Source: Planctomycetia bacterium
GTDB taxonomy: Bacteria > Planctomycetota > Planctomycetia > Gemmatales > HRBIN36
Direction: 5' to 3'
DNA length: 64,000 nt
NCBI GenBank assembly: GCA_016795155.1
Contig: JAEUIE010000015.1
Span: forward strand, 62,001 to 126,000
The notes below the pieces were generated by a model, which was not told the DNA's origin, made no database searches, and saw only the letters and a list, made by a program, of their open reading frames with translations. Shown piece after piece: positions 13,690 through 28,475 of the stretch (positions are counted from its first letter, which is position 1; each line of letters begins with the position of its first letter). The position numbers were made by a program, and so were the translations under genes.

Positions 13690-16416
13690 TCATTTTTCCG
13701 CTTTTGGAGGCAGGACTTTGCCCTGCTGGTCAATTGCACCTGCTGCAATCGTTGTAAATTTCCCAGTGTGAATGTACTTTTTAGCCATTTCCCGAATTTG
13801 CTCAGGAGTTACAGATTCAACACTGTTTTTATACCGGTCATAATAATCCAACCCGAAACCGAATCGATTCAGATAGAGCAACCGTTGGGCGATGCTTTCA
13901 TTCGTTGTCATTAAAAAGGCAAGTTTACCTATCAGATACTGCTTGGTACTGGTAACTTCATATTCACTGGGAACTTCCTTTTGAAGCCTTTCGATCTCCT
14001 CCAGGAAAAGCTGTTTAACCCGTTGATAATTTCTGGCATCAGTACCGATGTAACACATGAATGTTCCAGGCTGGAGATCAGCGGAGTCCGTAATCGTTGC
14101 TGTAACGGTATATGCCAGCCCTTCCCTGTCGCGAAGCCGTGAAGAAAGTCGATCAGTGAAGCCGGAACCTGTTCCAAGCACATTGTCCATAACGAGCAGC
14201 TTGAAATAGTCGGGGTTATCTCGTGTGATTCCCAGATGCCCCATCAAAAACTGCAACTGTGCAGCCTGTGGCATCGTGATAATCCGTGTGCTGCCTTCCT
14301 TGGTGAAGGCAATTTCTGGTTGAGCATTCAGTAGTTGCAGTTTGCTGTCCCACTTTGCTGTCAGACTTTTGATGTGGTTGGTAACTTCTTCATAATCAAA
14401 ATCACCGACCACTGCGATTGTCAGGTTTTCAGGTGTCATGATTTTCCGATGAAACTGCAGACAATCTTCTCGGGTTAGCTGTTCAACCGATTGCAATGTA
14501 CCTCTCGATACCCTGCCCTTGAAGTGGGTACCATACACACTTTCCTGGAAAGCCATGAATGCTCGTGAAAGAGGCTCTTCATTCGCCTGGGCAATTTCAG
14601 ATTTCTGCTCTTCCTTCTTACGGGCAAAAGCTTCGCCAGGGAAATTGGAATGTAGCAGGCAATCAAAAAGCAAATCGAGTCCAAGCTTTGAATTATCTTT
14701 CAGTACCTTTACAACGCCACCTCCTGATGAAAGGCTCAGTGAACCTCCAACGTTTTCTATTGTTTCTGCAATCTGATTCTGTGTACGCTGCTCAGTTCCT
14801 TCTTCGAGCAGGCTTCCAGTCAGTAAAGCCAGACCTGATTGTGCCGCATCTTCATACTCCCTGACATACTTCAGTGATGTAGCTGCGACAACTATTGGCA
14901 TTCTTGAGTTCTGCAACATCAGAAGAGTCAGGCCGTTTGGAAGCACTACTTTTTTAGTTTGTTGCAGATTGACTGGTGAGCGGCCGCCTTCTGATTGCGT
15001 ATGTGAACGACGTTCTGGCTTGACCGCTGAGCCTACCGAACCGAGTGATGGTTCGGCTTTGGGGACAGACCAAACAATAACAGATTTATCCTGGAGCAGA
15101 TACTGTTGGGCTACTCTTTGAATATCTTGAGGTTTTACAATGGCCCACAGGCTGAACTGATTTTTCAGTTTGGAAACGGGAATCATGTGAATGGAGCTGG
15201 CAATGCTATCCGCCAGGCTATGTATGCTTTCACGACTGAATATGGTTTGTGTGATCAGAAGTCTTTGATATCGAGTCATTTCCTCAGCAGAAACTGTTTC
15301 AGTTGCAAGTCTGTTGAGTTCATGAACAATGAGCTTTTCGGCTTGAGCACGTTCTTTGCCTGGAATCAATTCAACTTGAATGTTCAGCCAGCCAGGATTT
15401 CTACCAGGTAAATGAGAGGCTGATACATCGAGTGCGATGCGTTCTTCAAGTACCAGTTTCTTGTAAAGTCGACTGGTTTTACCTGATGCCAGTACCATGC
15501 TGGCCATGTCGAGCGCTGTTTCATCTTCGTGGCCTTGAGGTATGGTGACAAAGGCCATCACCATGCGTGGCACGGGGAATTTGGAGGTGAATTCATGTCG
15601 CAACTGTTTGGTGGGCGTGATTGCAGTCCACTTGTGGCGTTCAGGCAACTTGGCAGAGGGGATGCTCTCCAGTTTAGATTTGATCTTGGCCAGTGCGATA
15701 TCAGGATCGAAACCACCAACCAGCACCACCGCTGCGTTATTGGGATGATACCAGTTGTTGTAATAGGTGGTTATCAAAGGTGCCGTTGCAGACCGCACAT
15801 GTTCTCGCTCGCCAATCACCGGATGGCCATAAGGTGATTCTTTGCCAAAAAGAAGCTGCAGCATGGCCTTCTCTTCAAGATCCCACGGAGTGTCTTCGTT
15901 GCGTGCCAATTCTTCGATGACAGCTCCTTTTTCCTGTTCAAATTCATGTTGTTTATCAATCAGCGTGCCTCGCATGCGTTCAGCTTCAATTTCAAGTCCC
16001 GTTTCCCAGCGATCCGCTGCGAAATCAAAATGATAATTGGTGATATCGTGATTGGTGTAGGCATTATTTGACCCGCCACTCCGTTGAGTCATTCGATCGA
16101 TATCGCCTGGCTTGAAACGGGCCGTGCCTTTGAACAGGAGATGTTCCAGATAATGCGATAACCCGGTGGCATTCTTGTCTTCGTCACAGGCTCCTACCTT
16201 GAAGCAAGTCATCATGGTCACGATGGGTGAGCCGGGGACAGGCAGAAGGTATACTTTCAATCCATTCGATAAGGTATGCTCACGCAGTGAGTCATATAAG
16301 TGAAGTGCTGCGGATGGAATGACAAATGATCTTGTTTCCTGAGTTCGAACTTTATCCTGCAGAACCAGGCACATAACCAGGGGCAGGAAGCACATTCCAG
16401 GAAACCGGCAAAACAT
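13690..16416 (-). CDS. M16 family zinc protease, fused active and inactive halves
   Basis: The 908-residue protein has an N-terminal hydrophobic signal or anchor (residues 1-20) followed by two M16 modules. The first carries the inverted zinc motif HYLEH (His88, Glu91, His92) and the third ligand Glu168 in GAVIEEL, plus the conserved Arg/Tyr block near the middle. The second, from about residue 480 (VVLPNGLTLLMLQNS), lacks HxxEH and should serve as the closing half of the clamshell. This two-in-one design resembles pitrilysin-like and many bacterial PqqL/YhjJ-type enzymes. AGGA seven bases upstream supports the ATG. It lies 18 bases from the glycosyltransferase gene on the same strand, and 73 bases from the divergent recG start. 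Confidence 0.92.
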   Translation of the reverse strand: MFCRFPGMCFLPLVMCLVLQDKVRTQETRSFVIPSAALHLYDSLREHTLSNGLKVYLLPVPGSPIVTMMTCFKVGACDEDKNATGLSHYLEHLLFKGTARFKPGDIDRMTQRSGGSNNAYTNHDITNYHFDFAADRWETGLEIEAERMRGTLIDKQHEFEQEKGAVIEELARNEDTPWDLEEKAMLQLLFGKESPYGHPVIGEREHVRSATAPLITTYYNNWYHPNNAAVVLVGGFDPDIALAKIKSKLESIPSAKLPERHKWTAITPTKQLRHEFTSKFPVPRMVMAFVTIPQGHEDETALDMASMVLASGKTSRLYKKLVLEERIALDVSASHLPGRNPGWLNIQVELIPGKERAQAEKLIVHELNRLATETVSAEEMTRYQRLLITQTIFSRESIHSLADSIASSIHMIPVSKLKNQFSLWAIVKPQDIQRVAQQYLLQDKSVIVWSVPKAEPSLGSVGSAVKPERRSHTQSEGGRSPVNLQQTKKVVLPNGLTLLMLQNSRMPIVVAATSLKYVREYEDAAQSGLALLTGSLLEEGTEQRTQNQIAETIENVGGSLSLSSGGGVVKVLKDNSKLGLDLLFDCLLHSNFPGEAFARKKEEQKSEIAQANEEPLSRAFMAFQESVYGTHFKGRVSRGTLQSVEQLTREDCLQFHRKIMTPENLTIAVVGDFDYEEVTNHIKSLTAKWDSKLQLLNAQPEIAFTKEGSTRIITMPQAAQLQFLMGHLGITRDNPDYFKLLVMDNVLGTGSGFTDRLSSRLRDREGLAYTVTATITDSADLQPGTFMCYIGTDARNYQRVKQLFLEEIERLQKEVPSEYEVTSTKQYLIGKLAFLMTTNESIAQRLLYLNRFGFGLDYYDRYKNSVESVTPEQIREMAKKYIHTGKFTTIAAGAIDQQGKVLPPKAEK

Positions 16417-16489: not shown

Positions 16490-18589
16490 ATGAGTGAATC
16501 ACTATCTCCCAGTACAGAGAACCCGCTGGCTTCATCTGCGCAATTCGTCAAAGGTGTGGGGCCACAACGATATGAAAAACTCCTGAAACTGGGACTGGTA
16601 ACCGTGGGCGACTTGCTCTTCTACCTGCCTCGTGCCTATGAATCGCTGACCAACCGTGCGAAGATTGCCGATCTCAAAGCTAATGATGAACCTCAAACCA
16701 TTGTTGGCGAAGTAGTTGAAATCGAGGGGAGAACCACGCACAGCGGAAAAGATCTGGTGAGCATTGTCATCAGTGATGGTGATCCCATGGTGCTGGAAGC
16801 AACATTCTTTAATCAGCCCTTTGTCGCAAACCGTTTGAGTTATGGAATGACGGTCGCCTGTACTGGCAAGCCTCGGCGATATCGTGGCCATTGGCAGATG
16901 AACAATCCGAAGTTAAGGCCGGTAGACCAGTCAGTCATAGATGGCGAATCAACAGTCATGCCTCTTTATGGATTGACCGAGGGATTGCATGCAGATGCCA
17001 TGCGAAGAATTCAGAAGGAAATTGTTGAACGATATGCTGTTGCATTAAGGGAAATCACGCCACCTGAACTGGTCATTCGTCGTGGATTACCTCGATTGAC
17101 TGAGGCTTTTCGTGCAGTGCATCTGCCTCAGACGCTTGCTGAAGCACAGCTTGGCAGAAGCAGGCTGGCATACGATGAATTGCTAGTGCTGCAGGTCGCA
17201 CTCGGATTGCAACGACGCGATCAGCAGGTACAAGGGAAAGCCAGTCCGCTGCCACGCTCACGAATGGTTGATGAACGCATTCGGCGACTTTTTCCCTTTG
17301 ATCTGACAGACGGGCAGGTAAAGGCTATTCATCAGATCTGCGAGGATATGGTACAGGAACGACCCATGCGTCGACTCCTGCAGGCAGATGTAGGCGCGGG
17401 GAAAACAGCAGTTGCCATCTATGCCATGCTGGTTGCTGTTGCCAACAAACATCAGACGGCACTCATGGCGCCAACGGAGGTTCTTGCCAGGCAGCATTGG
17501 AGGACCTTCCAGAAGTATCTGATGCACAGCAAAGTCCGCATGGAATTCCTGGTGGGGGGGATGTCTGAAGCAGATCGGCGGATTGCCTTATCCGAAATCA
17601 AGAATGGAACAATTGATCTGGTGGTGGGTACACAGGCCTTGATTCAGAACGATATTGAATTTGCCAATCTGGGGCTGGTAGTGATTGATGAACAGCACCG
17701 ATTTGGAGTACAGCAGCGCGCTACCATCAGACACAAAGGGCTTGATCCGCATTATCTGGTAATGACTGCTACCCCTATACCTCGTTCGGTGGCATTAACG
17801 GTCTTTGGAGATCTTGATGTATCTGTCATTCGTGAGTTGCCTCAAGGTAGAAAGCCAGTTCAGACAGCATGGGTAGCTGAGGAAGACCGGCATAATCTAA
17901 TGGCACGCTTAGTGAACGAAATGAAGAGTGGCAGACAACTCTACGTGGTTTGTCCGATGGTGGAAGAATCTGCAGATAATGATGTGAAAGGTGCGATAGA
18001 TACCGCGAAGCTGTTGCAGGATGGTTACTTTGCAGATTGCAAAGTTGGTTTATTACATGGCCGCATGTCGGATGATCAGAAAGACGAGATCATGAATCAA
18101 TTCAAAACGAAGCAGTTGGATTGCCTGGTAGCGACCACCGTGATTGAAGTAGGAGTGGACATCCCCAATGCTACGCTGATGGTCATTGAACACGCGGAAA
18201 GATTTGGCATGTCGCAACTGCATCAGTTGCGTGGAAGAATTTGCCGAGGCACGCAAGCAGGACAGTGTTACCTGTTTGCCAACACAGCGTCGCCTGAGTC
18301 GCAGGATCGACTCAAGTTTTTCTGTTCCACGACGGATGGTTTTCTGTTAGCGGAGAAAGACTTTGAACTTCGCGGCATGGGTGAATTTTTTGGAACCAGG
18401 CAACATGGTGCCAGTGAACTGAAGATCGCGCATCCGATCAGGGATATCGAAATGCTGGAGTTTGCACGCCACGACGCACTTGAGTTAATCAAAGCTGATC
18501 CAGGGTTACAGAAGCCTGAACACAGTGGAATTCGTGCTGCGGTACTTTCGCGATATGGCAGGAAACTGGGCTTGGCTGGAATTGGTTAA
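16490..18589 (+). CDS. recG: ATP-dependent DNA helicase RecG
   Basis: A 699-residue RecG, which reverses stalled forks and processes branched intermediates. The N-terminal wedge begins with FVKGVGPQRYEKLLKLG, and the OB fold covers about 60-150. Helicase motifs are clear: Walker A ADVGAGKTAVA, motif II DEQHRFGVQQR (the RecG form of DExH), motif III MTATPIPRS, and motif VI QLRGRICRG. The length is the usual one. The stop codon shares the palindrome TTAA with the stop of the convergent kinase gene (18586-18589). The divergent M16 gene begins 73 bases away. Confidence 0.97.
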   Translation: MSESLSPSTENPLASSAQFVKGVGPQRYEKLLKLGLVTVGDLLFYLPRAYESLTNRAKIADLKANDEPQTIVGEVVEIEGRTTHSGKDLVSIVISDGDPMVLEATFFNQPFVANRLSYGMTVACTGKPRRYRGHWQMNNPKLRPVDQSVIDGESTVMPLYGLTEGLHADAMRRIQKEIVERYAVALREITPPELVIRRGLPRLTEAFRAVHLPQTLAEAQLGRSRLAYDELLVLQVALGLQRRDQQVQGKASPLPRSRMVDERIRRLFPFDLTDGQVKAIHQICEDMVQERPMRRLLQADVGAGKTAVAIYAMLVAVANKHQTALMAPTEVLARQHWRTFQKYLMHSKVRMEFLVGGMSEADRRIALSEIKNGTIDLVVGTQALIQNDIEFANLGLVVIDEQHRFGVQQRATIRHKGLDPHYLVMTATPIPRSVALTVFGDLDVSVIRELPQGRKPVQTAWVAEEDRHNLMARLVNEMKSGRQLYVVCPMVEESADNDVKGAIDTAKLLQDGYFADCKVGLLHGRMSDDQKDEIMNQFKTKQLDCLVATTVIEVGVDIPNATLMVIEHAERFGMSQLHQLRGRICRGTQAGQCYLFANTASPESQDRLKFFCSTTDGFLLAEKDFELRGMGEFFGTRQHGASELKIAHPIRDIEMLEFARHDALELIKADPGLQKPEHSGIRAAVLSRYGRKLGLAGIG

Positions 18590-21459
18590 CGATAGTAATT
18601 GGCAGGCTTAACAGCCTGGTTATCGAAGACAAAGCGAGCACCAATTTCAAACCAGCCGCCTTGAGTATGCTGGTCGCAGCGAATCAACTGTGCAAGCACC
18701 GAAACAGGCTCTGGCTGGCGTGGATGAACGAGTTCCACTTTGAGTTGTGTACCTGTTATGGCCGTCGGCGTATAAACCGAAATGCCGCTTAATGAAATAT
18801 CCTTACCTTGGCATTGCACCGCGGGACCGCGTTCTCCGCGAGCTGACAGTGCGTAGGCTTTCAAAGGCACATTGTATTCAAAGCGTTCCTGGGCTCTTCG
18901 GTCGGGAGTTGCTTGCAGGAATGTACGCAGCGTTTCAACAATTCGCGGGCCGGCTTCCTTGAGCATTTCCTCAGCTTCATCAACCTCCGAAATCCCATAA
19001 GGACGAACCTGTACAGTTACATCTGTCAGCATAGCCTGGCGACTGTGCGGTCGTGCCAGATGGAGAGTGATTTCCAGCCCTTGTTGCTGGGAGCGGAGGC
19101 TCTTCCAGAAAGACTTTACTGGCCTTGGGATACGATAAACATAGACATTATCTTCATTTCGTACCAGTTCTGCACCGATGGATAGTCTGAATCCATCCAG
19201 CTTGGCTTGTGCAATACCTGCCATCAGCATTGCACCGCAGCGATGATGAATCATTTCACCGCGACGATGAATGTAACGGATGGAATTGACGGTTTCTGTA
19301 GGCCACGCTGCGACAATGGTGCCGACAATATCAGAAACGGCTTGCGTTGGCGGCATTCCACCCTGGGATTGAGGGTTGATTTCCAGCCAGCCGGTTTGTG
19401 GTGCGCCTGATGCTGAAGGCACAACGTGTTGTGGTTTGTGCGAGCGGTAGGAAGAAATGCCGGTGATGCAGTGTTCCAGTGCGTCAATAAGTTCCATGCA
19501 CGATTGAAAACGTTGATCGGGGTCTGGGTCGAAAGCGCGTGCCATCACAGGACGTTCAGAAGGATGCAGTAATTCCAGATCAGGGGCGAGTACACGTGCA
19601 GTGGTGTTCGCGCGGGGCCCGGCGGTTCGCACGGAGTTTCTGATCGTCTGGGCACGCAGTGGATGTACACCGATTGCCAATTCCTGATACACCAGTGCGA
19701 GGCTGAAGATATCACAGGTGCGATGGATAATGCCATCTGCCAGTTCGGGGGCGCCATAGCGGGAATTTAACTGAGCCAGAGGCTGTCCGCTTGGGGCCCA
19801 TAACAAATGAACCAGCCCGAAATCCGCAATCAACAATTCCAATTCCGGTGGCGACAGCAGATTCCGGGGGTTTAAGCTGAGGTGAAGTATTTCGAATCGT
19901 TGGTACAGATCATCCAGTGTGGTCGCTGCCTGTCTTAGCAGGGGTAATAAGTCAGCACGTGGAATACCCTGCATGCGCTTGGAACGATGTTCCTGGAATT
20001 TCTCCCACAAAGTTTCTTCTACGGAACTGGATAACAGACAGATTCGTCCAGGGCCGGTTTGAATGATTTCGCAAGGCAATAGCCCAGGATGCTTGACTGA
20101 GCGAAGGAAATTGATCGCCTTCTCTTCATCATCCGGGTCCTGGCCACCAAAGCCACTGATCACCTTGACCATGGCTGGGTCGCCATCGGGCGTTTCTACT
20201 CGCCACAATTCACCCAGAGGGCTGCGGCCTATGCATTCCCTGAATACAAATCCCGGCAATGCATCGGTATCCGCTCCTGGTGCCATCGCAGGCAACATGA
20301 TATTCGAACGGGATATCGTGGGAGACCTGGAAATGGCGTTTCGGGGAATCGTTGGAGGCGGTACAGAAGATGGCGGAATGAGGCTGGAAGGTCGATTCGG
20401 TACAGGTTGATAAGTAGGAACCGGTCGTGGTTGCCTGGTAACTGCTTTCATCTGTTCCTGATGGGACAACTCTGTAGATGAAAGATTGATTTCCTTGGCG
20501 GTATCCAGTCCCTGCAGTTTGCGAATCAATCGCGATGATCGCATTTCGCCTTTATCTGCACTGTTGATATCTCCCGAAATCAGGGCATGGAGAAACGACA
20601 TACAGTTTTCGAATCGCTTCTCAGGGTCTTTGCTCAATGCCTTGGCTATGATGGGAATGTCGTTCGGAGGTAAAGGCTGAAGATTGGGCTCAGCCATCAT
20701 ATGCTGCATGGCTAGTTGCCGCGGGTTCCTTCCACTGTATGGCAGAACACCTGTCAACAGTTCCTGATAGACAATAGCGAGAGAGTACTGATCACTACTA
20801 GGATGTATTTTTCCCTGTAATGTTTCCGGAGCTACATACAGAGGTGTAATTCCTGACAGTTGCTCGCTGGCTTGAGTAGCTGTCTGGGTACCGTCGTTGA
20901 AGTGTCCCAGGTCAGTCACCAGTCCGAAATCTGCAACTTTAACGTGACCTGATACTAGAAACAGATTGCCTGGTTTTATATCGAGATGCATCAGTCCGTG
21001 CACATGATTCATGTGATCAAGTGCTTCTGCAGTCTCAGCCATATAGCTGAGAAGTTCATCACGAGGAATACCAGAGTACCCTGATTGCTTGTAGCTTTCC
21101 AGTAATTCGTGCAGCGTGCGATCGGCGAGTTCCATCACGATCAGCAATTCACCGTTGACTTCCTCGATTCGATCCATCTGAAGGATAAACGGATGTCGGA
21201 TTCCGACGACCCGTTTAAGGGCACGATACTCCTGCGCTGCCTGATGTTGATTGCCAACCGGGGTGGTGCAGTTGCCACGAATGAACTTGATAGCTTTTTG
21301 AATGCCGCCTGGCGCTTCGCATTTCCAGACTTCACCGAAGCCGCCTCGTCCCAGGATTTGAATAAGCTGATAGCCAATAATGGGCTGTGAACCAGGCTGA
21401 CGAATCTTGCATGGTTCCTTCTCAACCGTCGCAGGTGATGTCCCGGCAGCAAATGGCAT
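18586..21459 (-). CDS. Tandem Ser/Thr kinase-pseudokinase-PilZ protein
   Basis: The 957-residue protein has two Hanks-type kinase modules and a PilZ domain. Module 1 (about 29-290) has GRGGFGEVW, Lys58 in KAIKF, HLDIKPGN with catalytic Asp160, ADFG Asp177 and APE (210-211), so it should be active although HRD is HLD. A Pro/Ser-rich linker follows. Module 2 (about 404-665) keeps Lys432 and DFG Asp546 but has HLSLNPRN, with Ser528 in place of the catalytic Asp, and a weak Gly loop (GRSPLG): a likely pseudokinase. Residues 854-957 form a PilZ domain with RxxxR (855-859) and DxSxxG (887-892), the c-di-GMP-binding signature. No membrane helix is evident, so it is probably cytoplasmic. Confidence 0.92.
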   Translation of the reverse strand: MPFAAGTSPATVEKEPCKIRQPGSQPIIGYQLIQILGRGGFGEVWKCEAPGGIQKAIKFIRGNCTTPVGNQHQAAQEYRALKRVVGIRHPFILQMDRIEEVNGELLIVMELADRTLHELLESYKQSGYSGIPRDELLSYMAETAEALDHMNHVHGLMHLDIKPGNLFLVSGHVKVADFGLVTDLGHFNDGTQTATQASEQLSGITPLYVAPETLQGKIHPSSDQYSLAIVYQELLTGVLPYSGRNPRQLAMQHMMAEPNLQPLPPNDIPIIAKALSKDPEKRFENCMSFLHALISGDINSADKGEMRSSRLIRKLQGLDTAKEINLSSTELSHQEQMKAVTRQPRPVPTYQPVPNRPSSLIPPSSVPPPTIPRNAISRSPTISRSNIMLPAMAPGADTDALPGFVFRECIGRSPLGELWRVETPDGDPAMVKVISGFGGQDPDDEEKAINFLRSVKHPGLLPCEIIQTGPGRICLLSSSVEETLWEKFQEHRSKRMQGIPRADLLPLLRQAATTLDDLYQRFEILHLSLNPRNLLSPPELELLIADFGLVHLLWAPSGQPLAQLNSRYGAPELADGIIHRTCDIFSLALVYQELAIGVHPLRAQTIRNSVRTAGPRANTTARVLAPDLELLHPSERPVMARAFDPDPDQRFQSCMELIDALEHCITGISSYRSHKPQHVVPSASGAPQTGWLEINPQSQGGMPPTQAVSDIVGTIVAAWPTETVNSIRYIHRRGEMIHHRCGAMLMAGIAQAKLDGFRLSIGAELVRNEDNVYVYRIPRPVKSFWKSLRSQQQGLEITLHLARPHSRQAMLTDVTVQVRPYGISEVDEAEEMLKEAGPRIVETLRTFLQATPDRRAQERFEYNVPLKAYALSARGERGPAVQCQGKDISLSGISVYTPTAITGTQLKVELVHPRQPEPVSVLAQLIRCDQHTQGGWFEIGARFVFDNQAVKPANYYR

Positions 21460-23031: not shown

Positions 23032-26000
23032 ATGACCTCGACGGAGATGGATCTCATGCGTCGCACCACTCGTTGGGTTTCAATTACATTCTGCAGTTTG
23101 ATCGTGGGTTGCCTGCTAGGAATGACCGTTGCAGGAGTTCTCTATTTCAGACAGAGCCCTGCTGAACTGCTGAATCGCGGTGAAGCTGCTTTTCAGGCTG
23201 GCACCAGATCCTGTGAAAGACAGGAGTGGAGCAACGCACAGACACATTTTCAGGAATCGCTTCTTTCAGCTGAAAAGTTAATACAGCTAACGGAAACAAA
23301 TGCACAGAATCCAGCGCAGAATTCCACTTCTCCAAATCAACATCTGATTATGGGTAAGGGGTTGTGGCTCAAATATCGAGCCATGAAATCGTCTGCACTG
23401 GTTAAGCAGATGACTGCATATCCAGCAGACAGTGATAAGTCGAAACCGCCAGCCGACATCCAGAAACTATCCCCATTGCGGATTGCGGATGATACCATCC
23501 GTCGGGATGCCATTCTGACCTTGCGAGATGCTGCGTACCGTCTCAGGATGGAGTCAGAAGTATTGGATGAAGCGATCTCAGTGGAGATACAACTGGAACC
23601 ACTGCATTGGGATCATCTGCATGCCTTTACTACCACCCAGCACGAACTCAAACCGGATGATGCACGAACGTTATACCTAATGGCAAAGATGGCCTACGAG
23701 CAACTTGTGACGGTGAATGCCGATGGCGCTCTGAAAACAGTTCCAGCTCCACTGGTTAAGCGGAGCAGAGAAAAGATGAAAGCTGCGCTCAAGTATCTGG
23801 ACCAGTTAAATACAGTGGAAAAACCTGCGCGATGGAGAACGACCTATCTGCAGGCACAAATTCTAGCTTGGCTGAGCCAGCGTCAGGAAAGGAATACTGC
23901 TGAAGACACATATATTTCCCGCCTGTCTGCAATTCTATTCCATGATGCAGAAGGGATTGATGCCAGGCTGCAAGTAGAAAAGGAAATAAAGGATTTGAGT
24001 CACTTTGATATAACTGGCTTGTTTGGATTACATCAGATGAAACTGGAGGCCATCATTTCACGTAACCAGTTGTGGGAGATGTCTGGTAAGCAGTCGAGCA
24101 CTCCGAGGATTGCTGAAATACAGGATGCCATGCAGAAACTTACCGCCATCTCAGAGAAAGTCAACATTGCCGGTCGCAGGTCGCTGGTGGCTTCTAATTA
24201 CGTAAACGCCTGCCTCAAGGTTATGCCAGCGCTGATTACCGACCAATACGACAAATGGTGCAAATGTCGTGATCACGCGGTCGCATTCTGCAGGCAAGCT
24301 ATGCTGGAAAATGCCTGGCAGCCAATGCACAGTCTGCAAATTGCTGATGTTCTCGTGCGCGACGCACAATGGCTGGAGGCACACAGAAAAACTGTAGAAT
24401 GTAATAAACTGTATCATGATGCCGAATTCTGGATTGATACCGGCATCAAAGCATGTAAGCCCGGTACGGTAATGCCGGGGCAACTGGCTTTACATGATGC
24501 AAAGCTGAAACTGCTGATTAAATCGAACGCTTCTACGCAGCCGATTCAGCAGCAGATCGCACTGATCAATCAAGTCAGTCATCCCACCGCCCAGGCAATT
24601 GGGCAATTCTACTCGGGACTGCTCGCACACCGTGAAGGGCGGTTGCAGCAGGCCCAGTTCTTATTGGAAAAAGCGGCCGCTTCTAAACAACTGGATTTGT
24701 ATCGGAGAGCAACAACACAGTTGATTCCGGTCTACCTTGCATTGGAAAAAGCTGAACACGCCCTGCATGCAATTGATGTTGTCTCAAAGCAATTTAGCAG
24801 ACTGGAGAACCAGCGGAAGGAAGATCTCGCCTGGTACGATGTTTTCCTGCGCTCGGGAAAAGAATGGTTGTCCGAAAAAATTCAAGCCCACATACTGGCT
24901 GCCCACGATGCTCGAAAGCAACTAAGAATAGCACCAACCGAGGCGACTGCGATTGCCAGACTGCAACTGCATGAAGAAGCTATGCAAATCGCGATTCAAA
25001 GCCTGAAAGATGACAGACTGCGCTACTATGCATCCATGGTTCAATATGCCCGCTACTTGTTGCAGTGGGACTGTCTGAAAGAAGTTGAACCGATTTTGAA
25101 GACGCTGAAAGAGTCATACACTGGCCAGGCTGCAGTCCTCCAGTTGGAGATGGGATATTTCCTCGCCAAACAATCGGCCGCTACAGCGCAGGCCGAATTG
25201 CCACGTGAAAATATTGCTCAGATGGATCAATTGATTCAACTGCACATGACACATGCCAAAGCACAGCAGGCGTGCAAGCTCATCTGGATCAAGTGGCTCA
25301 CCTATACCAATCGAAGCGACAAAGCCGAGCAATTGCTTCAAGATTCCGCTTTCTTTGGTCCATCTGAAGAAGCGCAAAAACTCAAACTGGTGGCACTTCT
25401 GTTCATGAATAAACGCGAGAAGGTACATGAAGTTGTGAAGCTGCTGCCACGCGACCCGCAAATGGACGTGGTGTTGTTGCTCGCTGCTGGTTCATTCAAG
25501 GAACAGCAGGACTTGGTCAACTCAATTTCCCAGACCAATCAGAATGCAGGTTTGATGAAGGCCTGGTCGGCAGCATTGAAACTGGCTCAAGGCGATCATG
25601 CCGAGGCATGTAAGGCTTTTATTCAGTGCTTGGAATATACTTCTGTTCGGCCACTGGTACGTCAGGGAATCATGGATGCATTTTCTGCCTGGTCGCAACT
25701 GCAACCGGTGGAAGCCAGGAAACGTGCAATTGAGAGCCTTCAACTCTATCCTGCTGAACCCTGTCTTTTGCTTGGGTTTGCCGTCTGCTGCCAACAGCTC
25801 GGTTCGTGGGGCGACCCGCAGGATACCAGTAATCAAGTCAAGGATATGGCGACCGCGCTTAAGGCACTCGAACAGGCTTATCTGCTCGAGAATAGAAGTC
25901 CCTGGGAAGCTGTATGGATTGCAGCCAACATGTGGATGCAAGTCGATATGCACGAGTATGCTGCTCGGTTACTTAAACAAGTGATTGAGCTGAATCCTCA

Positions 26001-27162
26001 GCACGAAGCTGCTTATCCTCTGGCGATAGAACTCGAACTGGAACAGAATTCTCCCCAAAGTACTCGAAGTGCCGAATTGACTGCAAAAGCGTATCGCAAA
26101 GAATTTCCGCAAGCTGCTGAATCGCTGTACTGGCTTGGGCGTTGTGCTGCGCGGGTAGGAAATATCAATGAAGCTCTTGAACGATATAGACAACTCATGG
26201 AATTGCAGCCACGGCATGCTCGTGTGTATCAGGCGTGTTGCCAATTGCTGCTGGAATCGGCCAACCGAGAGGCCTACTCAGCTTGTCAGCAGGTATTGCA
26301 GCGTTGGAAAAAAGCACTTCCCGAAGACTTGATGGCTTACCAGTATGAAATTCAACTGGCTGCCCGGCAAGGCAGGAAATCCGAATATCAGGTACTGGCT
26401 GACAGGCTTTTGACTCAACTCGAACCTGGCAATACCAGTACCATTCAAACCGTGGGGTTCAACAAAACAGCGAAGACTGTCGGTCGCCAGAAAGCGGACG
26501 CATTGTGCCTGCTGACTCAGGGGCTGATTCGCGCAGGAGAACTTCAGGAAGCCCGTGACATGAATTCCAGGGCACTGACTCTCTGTGAGGATCATGATGT
26601 CGCTAACCTGCTGCGAGGAGATATCTGTGTGCTCCAGTTAAAACAGGAATCGCTTCATACTTCTGCAAGGAAGACGCTTGCTCAACAGGCAGTTTCAGCT
26701 TATGCACAACATTACAGACAGCATAAGGGACATCCCTTGTCGGGAAATAATCTGGCATGGGTGATGGCTCAGGAATTGAATGAACCGCAGGAAGCGTATC
26801 GCATCATGCAGGAAGTGCGTAAGGGAAATCGATATCTGGAACCTATTTCCGGCGCCTGCATGTCACTGGAACTGCTGGATACCATGGGAATCATCTATCA
26901 GAAGCTGAGCAAGCCTGATTTGATCAGAGAGCGGATCGAGTTGTTCGAATCTGCCATGTCTCGGTATCAAAGTGAACCACGTGTGGCAGTACATATGGCA
27001 AATGCTTACCTGGCAGCGCAAAAGCATCAATTGGCTCTGCAGGCATTTCAGCAGGCACGAAAAATTCTGCCTCACTCTGTTCTGTCAGCAGAGAAGCAGC
27101 GAGAATTGAACAAGAGTATTCAGGATGGTCTCAATGCAGTTCAGGCACAGGCCGCTCCTTAG
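23032..27162 (+). CDS. Large TPR-rich membrane-anchored protein
   Basis: The 1376-residue protein opens with a short basic N-terminus and one membrane helix (about residues 14-38, WVSITFCSLIVGCLLGMTVAG), with the remainder predicted outside. It is nearly all alpha-helical and carries degenerate tetratricopeptide-like repeats: the recognisable ones are at about 40-85 (LLNRGEAAFQAG), 540-600, 930-1100 (ALEQAYLLENRSPWEAVWIA, ALERYRQLMELQPRHARVY) and at the C-terminus. No catalytic domain is seen. Such giant TPR proteins are frequent in planctomycetes and probably act as scaffolds. It is the first of three plus-strand genes and has DUF5009 50 bases behind it. Confidence 0.82.
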   Translation: MTSTEMDLMRRTTRWVSITFCSLIVGCLLGMTVAGVLYFRQSPAELLNRGEAAFQAGTRSCERQEWSNAQTHFQESLLSAEKLIQLTETNAQNPAQNSTSPNQHLIMGKGLWLKYRAMKSSALVKQMTAYPADSDKSKPPADIQKLSPLRIADDTIRRDAILTLRDAAYRLRMESEVLDEAISVEIQLEPLHWDHLHAFTTTQHELKPDDARTLYLMAKMAYEQLVTVNADGALKTVPAPLVKRSREKMKAALKYLDQLNTVEKPARWRTTYLQAQILAWLSQRQERNTAEDTYISRLSAILFHDAEGIDARLQVEKEIKDLSHFDITGLFGLHQMKLEAIISRNQLWEMSGKQSSTPRIAEIQDAMQKLTAISEKVNIAGRRSLVASNYVNACLKVMPALITDQYDKWCKCRDHAVAFCRQAMLENAWQPMHSLQIADVLVRDAQWLEAHRKTVECNKLYHDAEFWIDTGIKACKPGTVMPGQLALHDAKLKLLIKSNASTQPIQQQIALINQVSHPTAQAIGQFYSGLLAHREGRLQQAQFLLEKAAASKQLDLYRRATTQLIPVYLALEKAEHALHAIDVVSKQFSRLENQRKEDLAWYDVFLRSGKEWLSEKIQAHILAAHDARKQLRIAPTEATAIARLQLHEEAMQIAIQSLKDDRLRYYASMVQYARYLLQWDCLKEVEPILKTLKESYTGQAAVLQLEMGYFLAKQSAATAQAELPRENIAQMDQLIQLHMTHAKAQQACKLIWIKWLTYTNRSDKAEQLLQDSAFFGPSEEAQKLKLVALLFMNKREKVHEVVKLLPRDPQMDVVLLLAAGSFKEQQDLVNSISQTNQNAGLMKAWSAALKLAQGDHAEACKAFIQCLEYTSVRPLVRQGIMDAFSAWSQLQPVEARKRAIESLQLYPAEPCLLLGFAVCCQQLGSWGDPQDTSNQVKDMATALKALEQAYLLENRSPWEAVWIAANMWMQVDMHEYAARLLKQVIELNPQHEAAYPLAIELELEQNSPQSTRSAELTAKAYRKEFPQAAESLYWLGRCAARVGNINEALERYRQLMELQPRHARVYQACCQLLLESANREAYSACQQVLQRWKKALPEDLMAYQYEIQLAARQGRKSEYQVLADRLLTQLEPGNTSTIQTVGFNKTAKTVGRQKADALCLLTQGLIRAGELQEARDMNSRALTLCEDHDVANLLRGDICVLQLKQESLHTSARKTLAQQAVSAYAQHYRQHKGHPLSGNNLAWVMAQELNEPQEAYRIMQEVRKGNRYLEPISGACMSLELLDTMGIIYQKLSKPDLIRERIELFESAMSRYQSEPRVAVHMANAYLAAQKHQLALQAFQQARKILPHSVLSAEKQRELNKSIQDGLNAVQAQAAP

Positions 27163-27212: not shown

Positions 27213-28475
27213 ATGTCAACAGCCTCGAAAGTAACTGAATTGAACTCTATGCCCGCGCAGAGATTCATGTCGTTCGATGCGCTGCGTGGCTTTGATATGT
27301 TCTGGATCATTGGCGGGGATGTAGCTATCCAATCCTGGCTGAAATACTCCCATCTTAGCTCCGCCCATGCAGCGGCAGATACCAGCACCTGGCAAATGGC
27401 ACTGTATCGACAACTCGAGCACTGTCCGTGGGAAGGCTTTCGTTTTTATGACCTCATCTTTCCCCTGTTCCTGTTCGTCATCGGTCTGGTAATTCCATTT
27501 TCGATCTTCCGAATGCAGAACGCAGGTATTCGCCACAGTGCCATTGTCTTTCGCATATTGCGGCGCACGTTGCTGCTCTTTATTTTGGGATTGCTCTACA
27601 ACGATTTGCTGCAATTCAATTTTCAGGATTTTCGATACGCAGGCGTGTTACAAAGGTTGGCGATAGGTTATGGCTTTGCAGCTCTCGTCGCGCTCTATCT
27701 CAAGCCTCGCGCCATTGCAGGATTATCAGGTATTCTCCTGGTGGGCTACTACCTGATACTTCTCATCATACCAGTGCCAGCTGGGCAAGCAGGTGACATC
27801 ACCCGTGAAGGCAACCTGGCAGGGTATGTCGATCGATTGGTATTGCAGGATTGGTTTGGAGGCAAAATCTATGAAGAGTATTACGGCTTCGGCGATAACG
27901 AAGGTTTACTCTCTACCATTCCATCCCTGGTGACAGCATTGTTGGGTGTGCTGGCGGGGTGCTGGTTGAAAACGGGACATGCCCAGGGCAGGAAATTCTC
28001 AGGCCTGGTTGTCGCTGGCTTGTTCATGCTCGCTGCAGGCTATGTCTGGTCAGGCGGGTTCAGTGATATCAGGAACCTGCATGATCGTTATGGAGTGTTC
28101 CCTGTCATTAAGAATCTTTGGACCAGTTCATTTGTGCTCTGGGCAGGTGGCTGGAGTCTCTTACTGCTCGCCTTGTTCTATGGTCTCATAGACGGCTTGG
28201 GCTTCAAAGCATGGGCCTGGGTGTTTGTTCCCATCGGAGCCAATGCCATCACCATTTATCTGATCAGTCACTTCATCGATCTGCAGCCATTGAGCAAGCA
28301 ATTATTTGGTGGAATGGCAAGAATCATCGCTGATGGAGTGCATTCAGTGTCAGATGTTGCTGTAGTTGCAATGAATAAAGAATTGAATCTTGCCATCATA
28401 CTTACCGGCATCGTCATTCTCGAGTGGTTGATATTATGGTTTTTGTATTCCCGCAAAATCTTTCTGCGAGTTTGA
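27213..28475 (+). CDS. DUF5009 / HGSNAT-like membrane acyltransferase
   Basis: A 420-residue multi-pass membrane protein of the family containing human heparan-alpha-glucosaminide N-acetyltransferase (HGSNAT) and bacterial DUF5009. Conserved blocks: FMSFDALRGFDMFWIIGGD at the N-terminus, FYDLIFPLFLFVIG, GVLQRLAIGYG, EGLLSTIPSLVTALLG, and KNLWTSSFVLWAGGWS. Around ten membrane helices can be counted. Family members move acetyl groups across membranes onto glycans. It begins 50 bases after the TPR gene and is followed 38 bases later by the nuclease gene; the three may form a transcription unit. Confidence 0.92.
   Translation: MSTASKVTELNSMPAQRFMSFDALRGFDMFWIIGGDVAIQSWLKYSHLSSAHAAADTSTWQMALYRQLEHCPWEGFRFYDLIFPLFLFVIGLVIPFSIFRMQNAGIRHSAIVFRILRRTLLLFILGLLYNDLLQFNFQDFRYAGVLQRLAIGYGFAALVALYLKPRAIAGLSGILLVGYYLILLIIPVPAGQAGDITREGNLAGYVDRLVLQDWFGGKIYEEYYGFGDNEGLLSTIPSLVTALLGVLAGCWLKTGHAQGRKFSGLVVAGLFMLAAGYVWSGGFSDIRNLHDRYGVFPVIKNLWTSSFVLWAGGWSLLLLALFYGLIDGLGFKAWAWVFVPIGANAITIYLISHFIDLQPLSKQLFGGMARIIADGVHSVSDVAVVAMNKELNLAIILTGIVILEWLILWFLYSRKIFLRV

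Follow-up and report, generated by a model that had tools for sequence, protein, structure and literature searches.

A planctomycete protein family combines a predicted active Ser/Thr kinase, a pseudokinase and a putative c-di-GMP-binding PilZ domain

Within a 64,000-nucleotide stretch of planctomycete DNA (hereafter, the window), we find a gene for a 957-amino acid protein (positions 18586..21459, minus strand; frame from ATG to TAA) that carries a kinase, a second kinase devoid of the catalytic Asp, a domain referred to here as X and a PilZ domain, and that has relatives of equal architecture. Judged from its sequence, the protein is best read as a Ser/Thr kinase that is gated by c-di-GMP and carries a regulatory pseudokinase, and we consider it probable that it functions in this way. 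Signalling by c-di-GMP and protein phosphorylation on Ser/Thr tend to be investigated as distinct networks; a c-di-GMP receptor fused to an active and to a dead kinase would provide a direct, testable link between both. Two new findings stand out as the strongest: throughout the family, the kinase next to an intact partner has lost its catalytic Asp, and the residues of the c-di-GMP site rank highest in conservation.

The reading frame is uninterrupted over the 957 residues from its ATG, which, together with the existence of full-length relatives, excludes a frame or sequencing artefact as its source. A Pfam search detects two Pkinase stretches (total E 5.8e-49), the first of which covers residues 30-284, in agreement with the original prediction of two Hanks kinase modules in tandem. 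While all domains named in that prediction stood, it had missed domain X at about residues 729-850 as well as a proline-rich linker (residues 302-400; 20260..20556, minus strand), which is predicted to be disordered (pLDDT <50 over the entire region). Hydropathy analysis of the 957-residue chain revealed no transmembrane helix (Kyte-Doolittle mean ≤1.24 over 19 residues), and the protein is predicted to be soluble. A full-length model reached a pTM of 0.37, too weak for domain packing to be deduced from it.

To place the protein in a family, 102 genomes of the order (Gemmatales-like planctomycetes) were surveyed, with relatives collected via the C-terminal module. The C-terminal 288 residues were matched in 47 of these genomes. 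Among the relatives collected, the tandem kinase-kinase-PilZ architecture was seen in 23 proteins from 17 of the 102 genomes. These represent 15 genera and the two families of the order; a contig end cuts one of the 23, leaving 22 scorable first kinases. The same C-terminal module follows a single active kinase in 19 proteins and a single divergent kinase in a further 12 cases, of which one domain is too incomplete for its catalytic residue to be read (11 scored). As an active first kinase, an Asp-less second kinase and intact PilZ motifs recur in two families of the order, the layout is not due to chance. A profile search with a five-row alignment identified four named loci of relatives, from uncultured Gemmataceae and other Planctomycetota. 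Outside the order, matches in 398 genomes of the class spanned little beyond the PilZ part, and among 294 genomes of the phylum, with three candidates per genome scored, no full-length match was found beyond the window's own genome. Kinase-pseudokinase-X-PilZ proteins appear, by sequence, to be a conserved and apparently undescribed family within the order.

The window's genome also encodes a stand-alone pseudokinase-X-PilZ protein of 558 residues (G000:C32:149487-151160; L059:988-2661, L154:4488-6161), in which the one divergent kinase bears HLCLSP in place of HLDIKP and is followed by X-PilZ. Such pseudokinase-only forms are not split genes beside an active kinase, given that no other kinase gene was present in the flanks examined. 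No conserved operon or pathway context was identified; recG, msrA and a TPR gene adjoin the gene in the window, but not the genes of its relatives. The kinase-PilZ gene and recG (plus strand, 16490-18589) lie tail to tail, with their stop-codon ends overlapping by four bases (18586-18589). The TPR protein (1376 residues, 23032-27162) has a hydrophobic stretch at its N-terminus, and a 420-residue open reading frame beside its gene (27213-28475) is without any Pfam match. A 908-residue protein (13690-16416) contains two M16 peptidase modules in one chain.

Kinase 1 (residues 28-296; 20572..21378, minus strand) exhibits all Hanks-type catalytic motifs, i.e. the G-loop (G37xGGFGxV), K58, E77, HLDIKPGN at positions 158-165 (including D160 and N165) and DFG at positions 177-179 (including D177), along with APE at positions 210-212. 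In a motif alignment, the equivalent of Asp160 was retained in all 22 scorable first kinases of tandem proteins, and the catalytic Asp was present in 19 of 19 single active-type kinases of the family. The strict HxDxKPxN motif was found in each of the 41 first or single active-type kinases, as well as in all 16 rows of a background set, a few of which are proteins of the family set that were fetched again. Kinase 1 is therefore very likely to be catalytically active. It is a non-RD kinase (Leu159), as are the other first and single active-type kinases of the family, the signature HLD[IV]KP being shared by all 41. In kinases of this type, phosphorylation of the activation loop would not be expected to act through an RD pocket, which makes control of kinase 1 from elsewhere in the chain plausible.

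Kinase 2 (residues 404-663; 19471..20250, minus strand) corresponds to the second Pfam Pkinase stretch and was also matched in a separate genome scan (window positions 19507-20118, E 1.8e-11). Its motif residues are K432, E445, H526, S528, N530, N533, DFG 546-548, APE 570-572, D583 and R650. In the catalytic loop, Asp is replaced by Ser528 (codon AGC, 19876..19878, minus strand) and Lys by Asn530, and the ATP-site residues Lys432, Glu445, Asn533 and DFG Asp546 are still in place. The original assignment of Ser528 to the position of the catalytic Asp (HLSLN), with Lys432 and DFG kept, was hence correct in every residue.

The substitution extends across the family. The catalytic Asp is missing from all 23 second kinases and from all 11 scored divergent single kinases (0/34 together), its place in relatives being taken by Gly, Ala, Glu, Met, Cys or Asn, and the strict HxDxKPxN motif occurs in 0/32 second or divergent kinases. 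A chance loss in one protein is ruled out by this survey. Across 32 second or divergent kinases, little or no variation is seen at the His, the APE Glu, the alpha-F Asp and the alpha-I Arg, so that the fold has been kept in the kinase 2 family. The ATP Lys and the DFG Asp are both kept in only eight of the 23 second kinases, and the complete set of Lys, Glu, Asn and DFG Asp only in the window's kinase 2 and one relative (n=23); few second kinases are as little degraded as that of the window, which may still bind ATP. In a quick maximum-likelihood tree, a branch with an SH-aLRT of 100 separates the second and divergent kinases from all first and background kinases, with long branches rendering the branching order within the group unsure. 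Moreover, dN/dS values for the pseudokinase domains ranged from 0.06 to 0.24 in close pairs, much as those of the active domains do; the pseudokinase domains are under purifying selection. The second kinases can thus be classed, by sequence, as a pseudokinase family of their own.

The PilZ domain (residues 853-944; 18628..18903, minus strand) matches Pfam PF07238 with an E value of 4e-7 (30.7 bits versus a cut-off of 22.5) and was recovered at 18628-18903 in a separate genome scan (E 4.9e-8). A PilZ profile match above the Pfam cut-off is thus present in the last 104 residues, where the domain had been predicted, and the motifs described as intact are R855-x3-R859 (RxxxR; 18883..18897, minus strand) and D887-x-S889-x2-G892 (DxSxxG; 18784..18801, minus strand). 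Structural comparison returned matches to c-di-GMP-bound PilZ proteins, with Z scores of 8-9 for the PilZ folds of BcsA, PA0012 and VCA0042. When the 268 columns of an alignment of 54 C-terminal modules were ranked by conservation, the five canonical c-di-GMP residues took the top five places (R855 and R859 ranking third and first; D887, S889 and G892 ranking fifth, fourth and second), with the motif being partly lost in a few relatives. We therefore infer that the PilZ domain of the 957-residue protein very probably binds c-di-GMP. GGDEF domains occur in 101 of the 102 genomes of the order. The window's genome has two GGDEF matches, one of them with the intact GGEEF site of a diguanylate cyclase, and three HD_5 matches above cut-off, which are HD-GYP candidates; no EAL phosphodiesterase was found in this genome. 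Whole-genome matches amount to 115 Pkinase, 2 GGDEF, 3 HD_5 and 4 PilZ, and kinase fusions make up half of the PilZ proteins of the window's genome.

Domain X (residues 729-850; 18910..19275, minus strand) was delineated in an AlphaFold model based on five sequences (mean pLDDT 74 over residues 690-957), in which a strand and a helix are followed by four strands and a long helix (beta-alpha-beta4-alpha). In structural comparison, KA1 domains came out on top, those from SAD kinases scoring highest (Z 10.1 and 10.0), ahead of Chk1 (Z 8.7) and AMPK (Z 8.5). As unrelated helix-grip folds reach Z scores of 8 to 8.4, the lead of KA1 is real but small. No sequence match of domain X to any known Pfam family was found, nor a sequence link to Pfam KA1 or to PDB sequences at E 10, a threshold that distant relatives could escape. 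In eukaryotes, KA1 domains lie C-terminal to kinases, bind acidic phospholipids and can inhibit the kinase. A KA1-like fold C-terminal to a kinase is what the model displays for domain X; with a model of moderate quality, we treat the likeness as a lead rather than as family membership.

Based on these results, we suggest that kinase 1 would be the catalytic part and the C-terminal X-PilZ module the sensor. Kinase 2, kept for its fold and in this protein perhaps still holding ATP-Mg, would dock on kinase 1 and regulate it in the manner of JAK kinases. R855/R859 and D887-x-S889-x2-G892 would form a clamp for c-di-GMP at the X-PilZ hinge, as in YcgR-type proteins, and ligand binding would turn PilZ against X. 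Without ligand, the X-PilZ module and the pseudokinase would hold kinase 1 at low activity, and with ligand kinase 1 would be freed. Allosteric coupling of the c-di-GMP site to the kinase appears reasonably likely; that the pseudokinase relays the signal is a more tentative proposal, and as to the sign, we can but guess that release of autoinhibition is the likelier one.

The relatives bear on the route of the signal. Because relatives with a single active kinase exist, X-PilZ can work with an active kinase without kinase 2, and a signal via the pseudokinase, though possible, therefore has no more evidence in its favour than a direct effect. The original prediction held that c-di-GMP and Ser/Thr phosphorylation are joined in one polypeptide, for which the domains and intact motifs speak, but its proposed route through the pseudokinase fared less well in view of these single-kinase relatives. 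Pseudokinase-only relatives, in turn, show that kinase 2-PilZ can exist alone, and these proteins suggest that the dead kinase might also be a partner in trans. It is conceivable, if rather unlikely, that the family represents a bacterial counterpart of tandem kinase-pseudokinase receptors, in which c-di-GMP-PilZ and a KA1-like domain act on the kinase-pseudokinase pair, and separate pseudokinase-PilZ proteins act in trans on other kinases. If true, this would be the first described direct c-di-GMP control of a Ser/Thr kinase within one polypeptide, along with a new pseudokinase family.

Alternatively, c-di-GMP might set the location or the partners of the kinase rather than its activity, with X and PilZ bringing the kinase to a partner or a membrane, and substrates docking on the pseudokinase as on a platform. 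The resemblance of domain X to KA1, which in eukaryotic kinases binds acidic phospholipids, would fit such a role, but it is a fold match of a moderate model without sequence support, and the net positive charge of domain X is small in this protein (18 K+R versus 14 D+E). Pseudokinase-X-PilZ proteins without an active kinase, one of them in the window's genome, would fit as well, as would the observations that most known PilZ effects are protein contacts, e.g. in YcgR and MapZ (PMC10333796), and that the bacterial pseudokinases EssB and MviN have scaffold roles (PMC12599244). We regard control of location as a doubtful, albeit serious, alternative.

Far less probable is that kinase 2 retains an enzymatic activity, be it an unusual Ser/Thr transfer or another reaction such as AMPylation. 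ATP-Mg could bind via the remaining K432, E445, N533 and D546, and SelO and SidJ are examples of kinase folds that lack the usual motif and carry out new reactions (PMC12599244), but Ser528 and Asn530 stand in for the catalytic-loop Asp and Lys, the replacements of the Asp vary among relatives, and the ATP Lys and DFG Asp coincide in so few second kinases (8/23) that the conserved active-site set expected of a conserved new activity is not seen. PilZ domains without c-di-GMP binding are also known (PMC10333796), and a degenerate PilZ domain with another ligand, or binding only proteins, has to be considered; with all five ligand residues intact and forming the most conserved positions of the C-terminal module, we deem this very improbable. 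Kinase 2 does outpace kinase 1 in evolution, as seen in the branch lengths of the tree, as it would if it were a functionless, decaying duplicate with PilZ being incidental. However, the low dN/dS of second kinases in close pairs (0.1-0.24) led us to reject a decaying duplicate, and the invariant structural residues in 32 sequences and the recurrence in two families of the order likewise argue against it, making this the least probable of all explanations. A c-di-GMP-gated kinase with a regulatory pseudokinase thus remains our preferred reading, and the family suggests that the messenger directly controls protein phosphorylation.

In line with the original statement that no described protein with this domain order was known, we found no kinase-PilZ protein in the literature, considering open-licence papers. 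A 2025 review of bacterial pseudokinases covers the families ActPs1-3, GLW, CP1, DYD and DLHK, without PilZ or planctomycetes (PMC12599244), and the kinase 2 family is apparently a bacterial pseudokinase family unlisted so far. Having an intact partner in the same chain as the Asp-less kinase, it offers a clean system for studying bacterial pseudokinase function. Planctomycetes have about 100 kinases per genome, and the main text of a 2024 survey names WD40, TPR, sulfatase-modifying, DUF1080 and tubulin-like partners, with PilZ not named there (PMC11032199).

Known systems share individual features with the protein. Planctomycete Ser/Thr kinases with WD40, TPR and other domains belong to the same clade as kinase 1. 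Like kinase 2, MviN (ActPs3), EssB/YukC and CP1 have a kinase fold without the catalytic Asp, and their scaffolding roles are known (PMC12599244), but they belong to other families and other phyla. JAK family members (e.g. TYK2, with its JH2 pseudokinase beside the JH1 kinase) also combine a pseudokinase and a kinase in one chain, and 4oli from this family ranked third among the fold matches of the full-length model; here, in contrast, the order is reversed with the active kinase first, the kinase is of the bacterial Ser/Thr type, and a PilZ sensor takes the place of FERM/SH2, with evidence for homology stopping at the kinase fold. In AMPK, SAD, MARK and Chk1, a kinase is likewise followed by a C-terminal beta-alpha-beta4-alpha domain (X versus KA1, Z 8.5-10.1), whereas our protein lacks sequence similarity to KA1 and adds a pseudokinase and PilZ; no UBA or AIS element as in these kinases was identified in its 957 residues. 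YcgR, MrkH, PlzA and BcsA, the best structural matches of the PilZ half, similarly have a domain preceding PilZ, RxxxR at the junction and DxSxxG, but in the present protein the model of X shows no PilZ-like barrel, and the effector part is a kinase.
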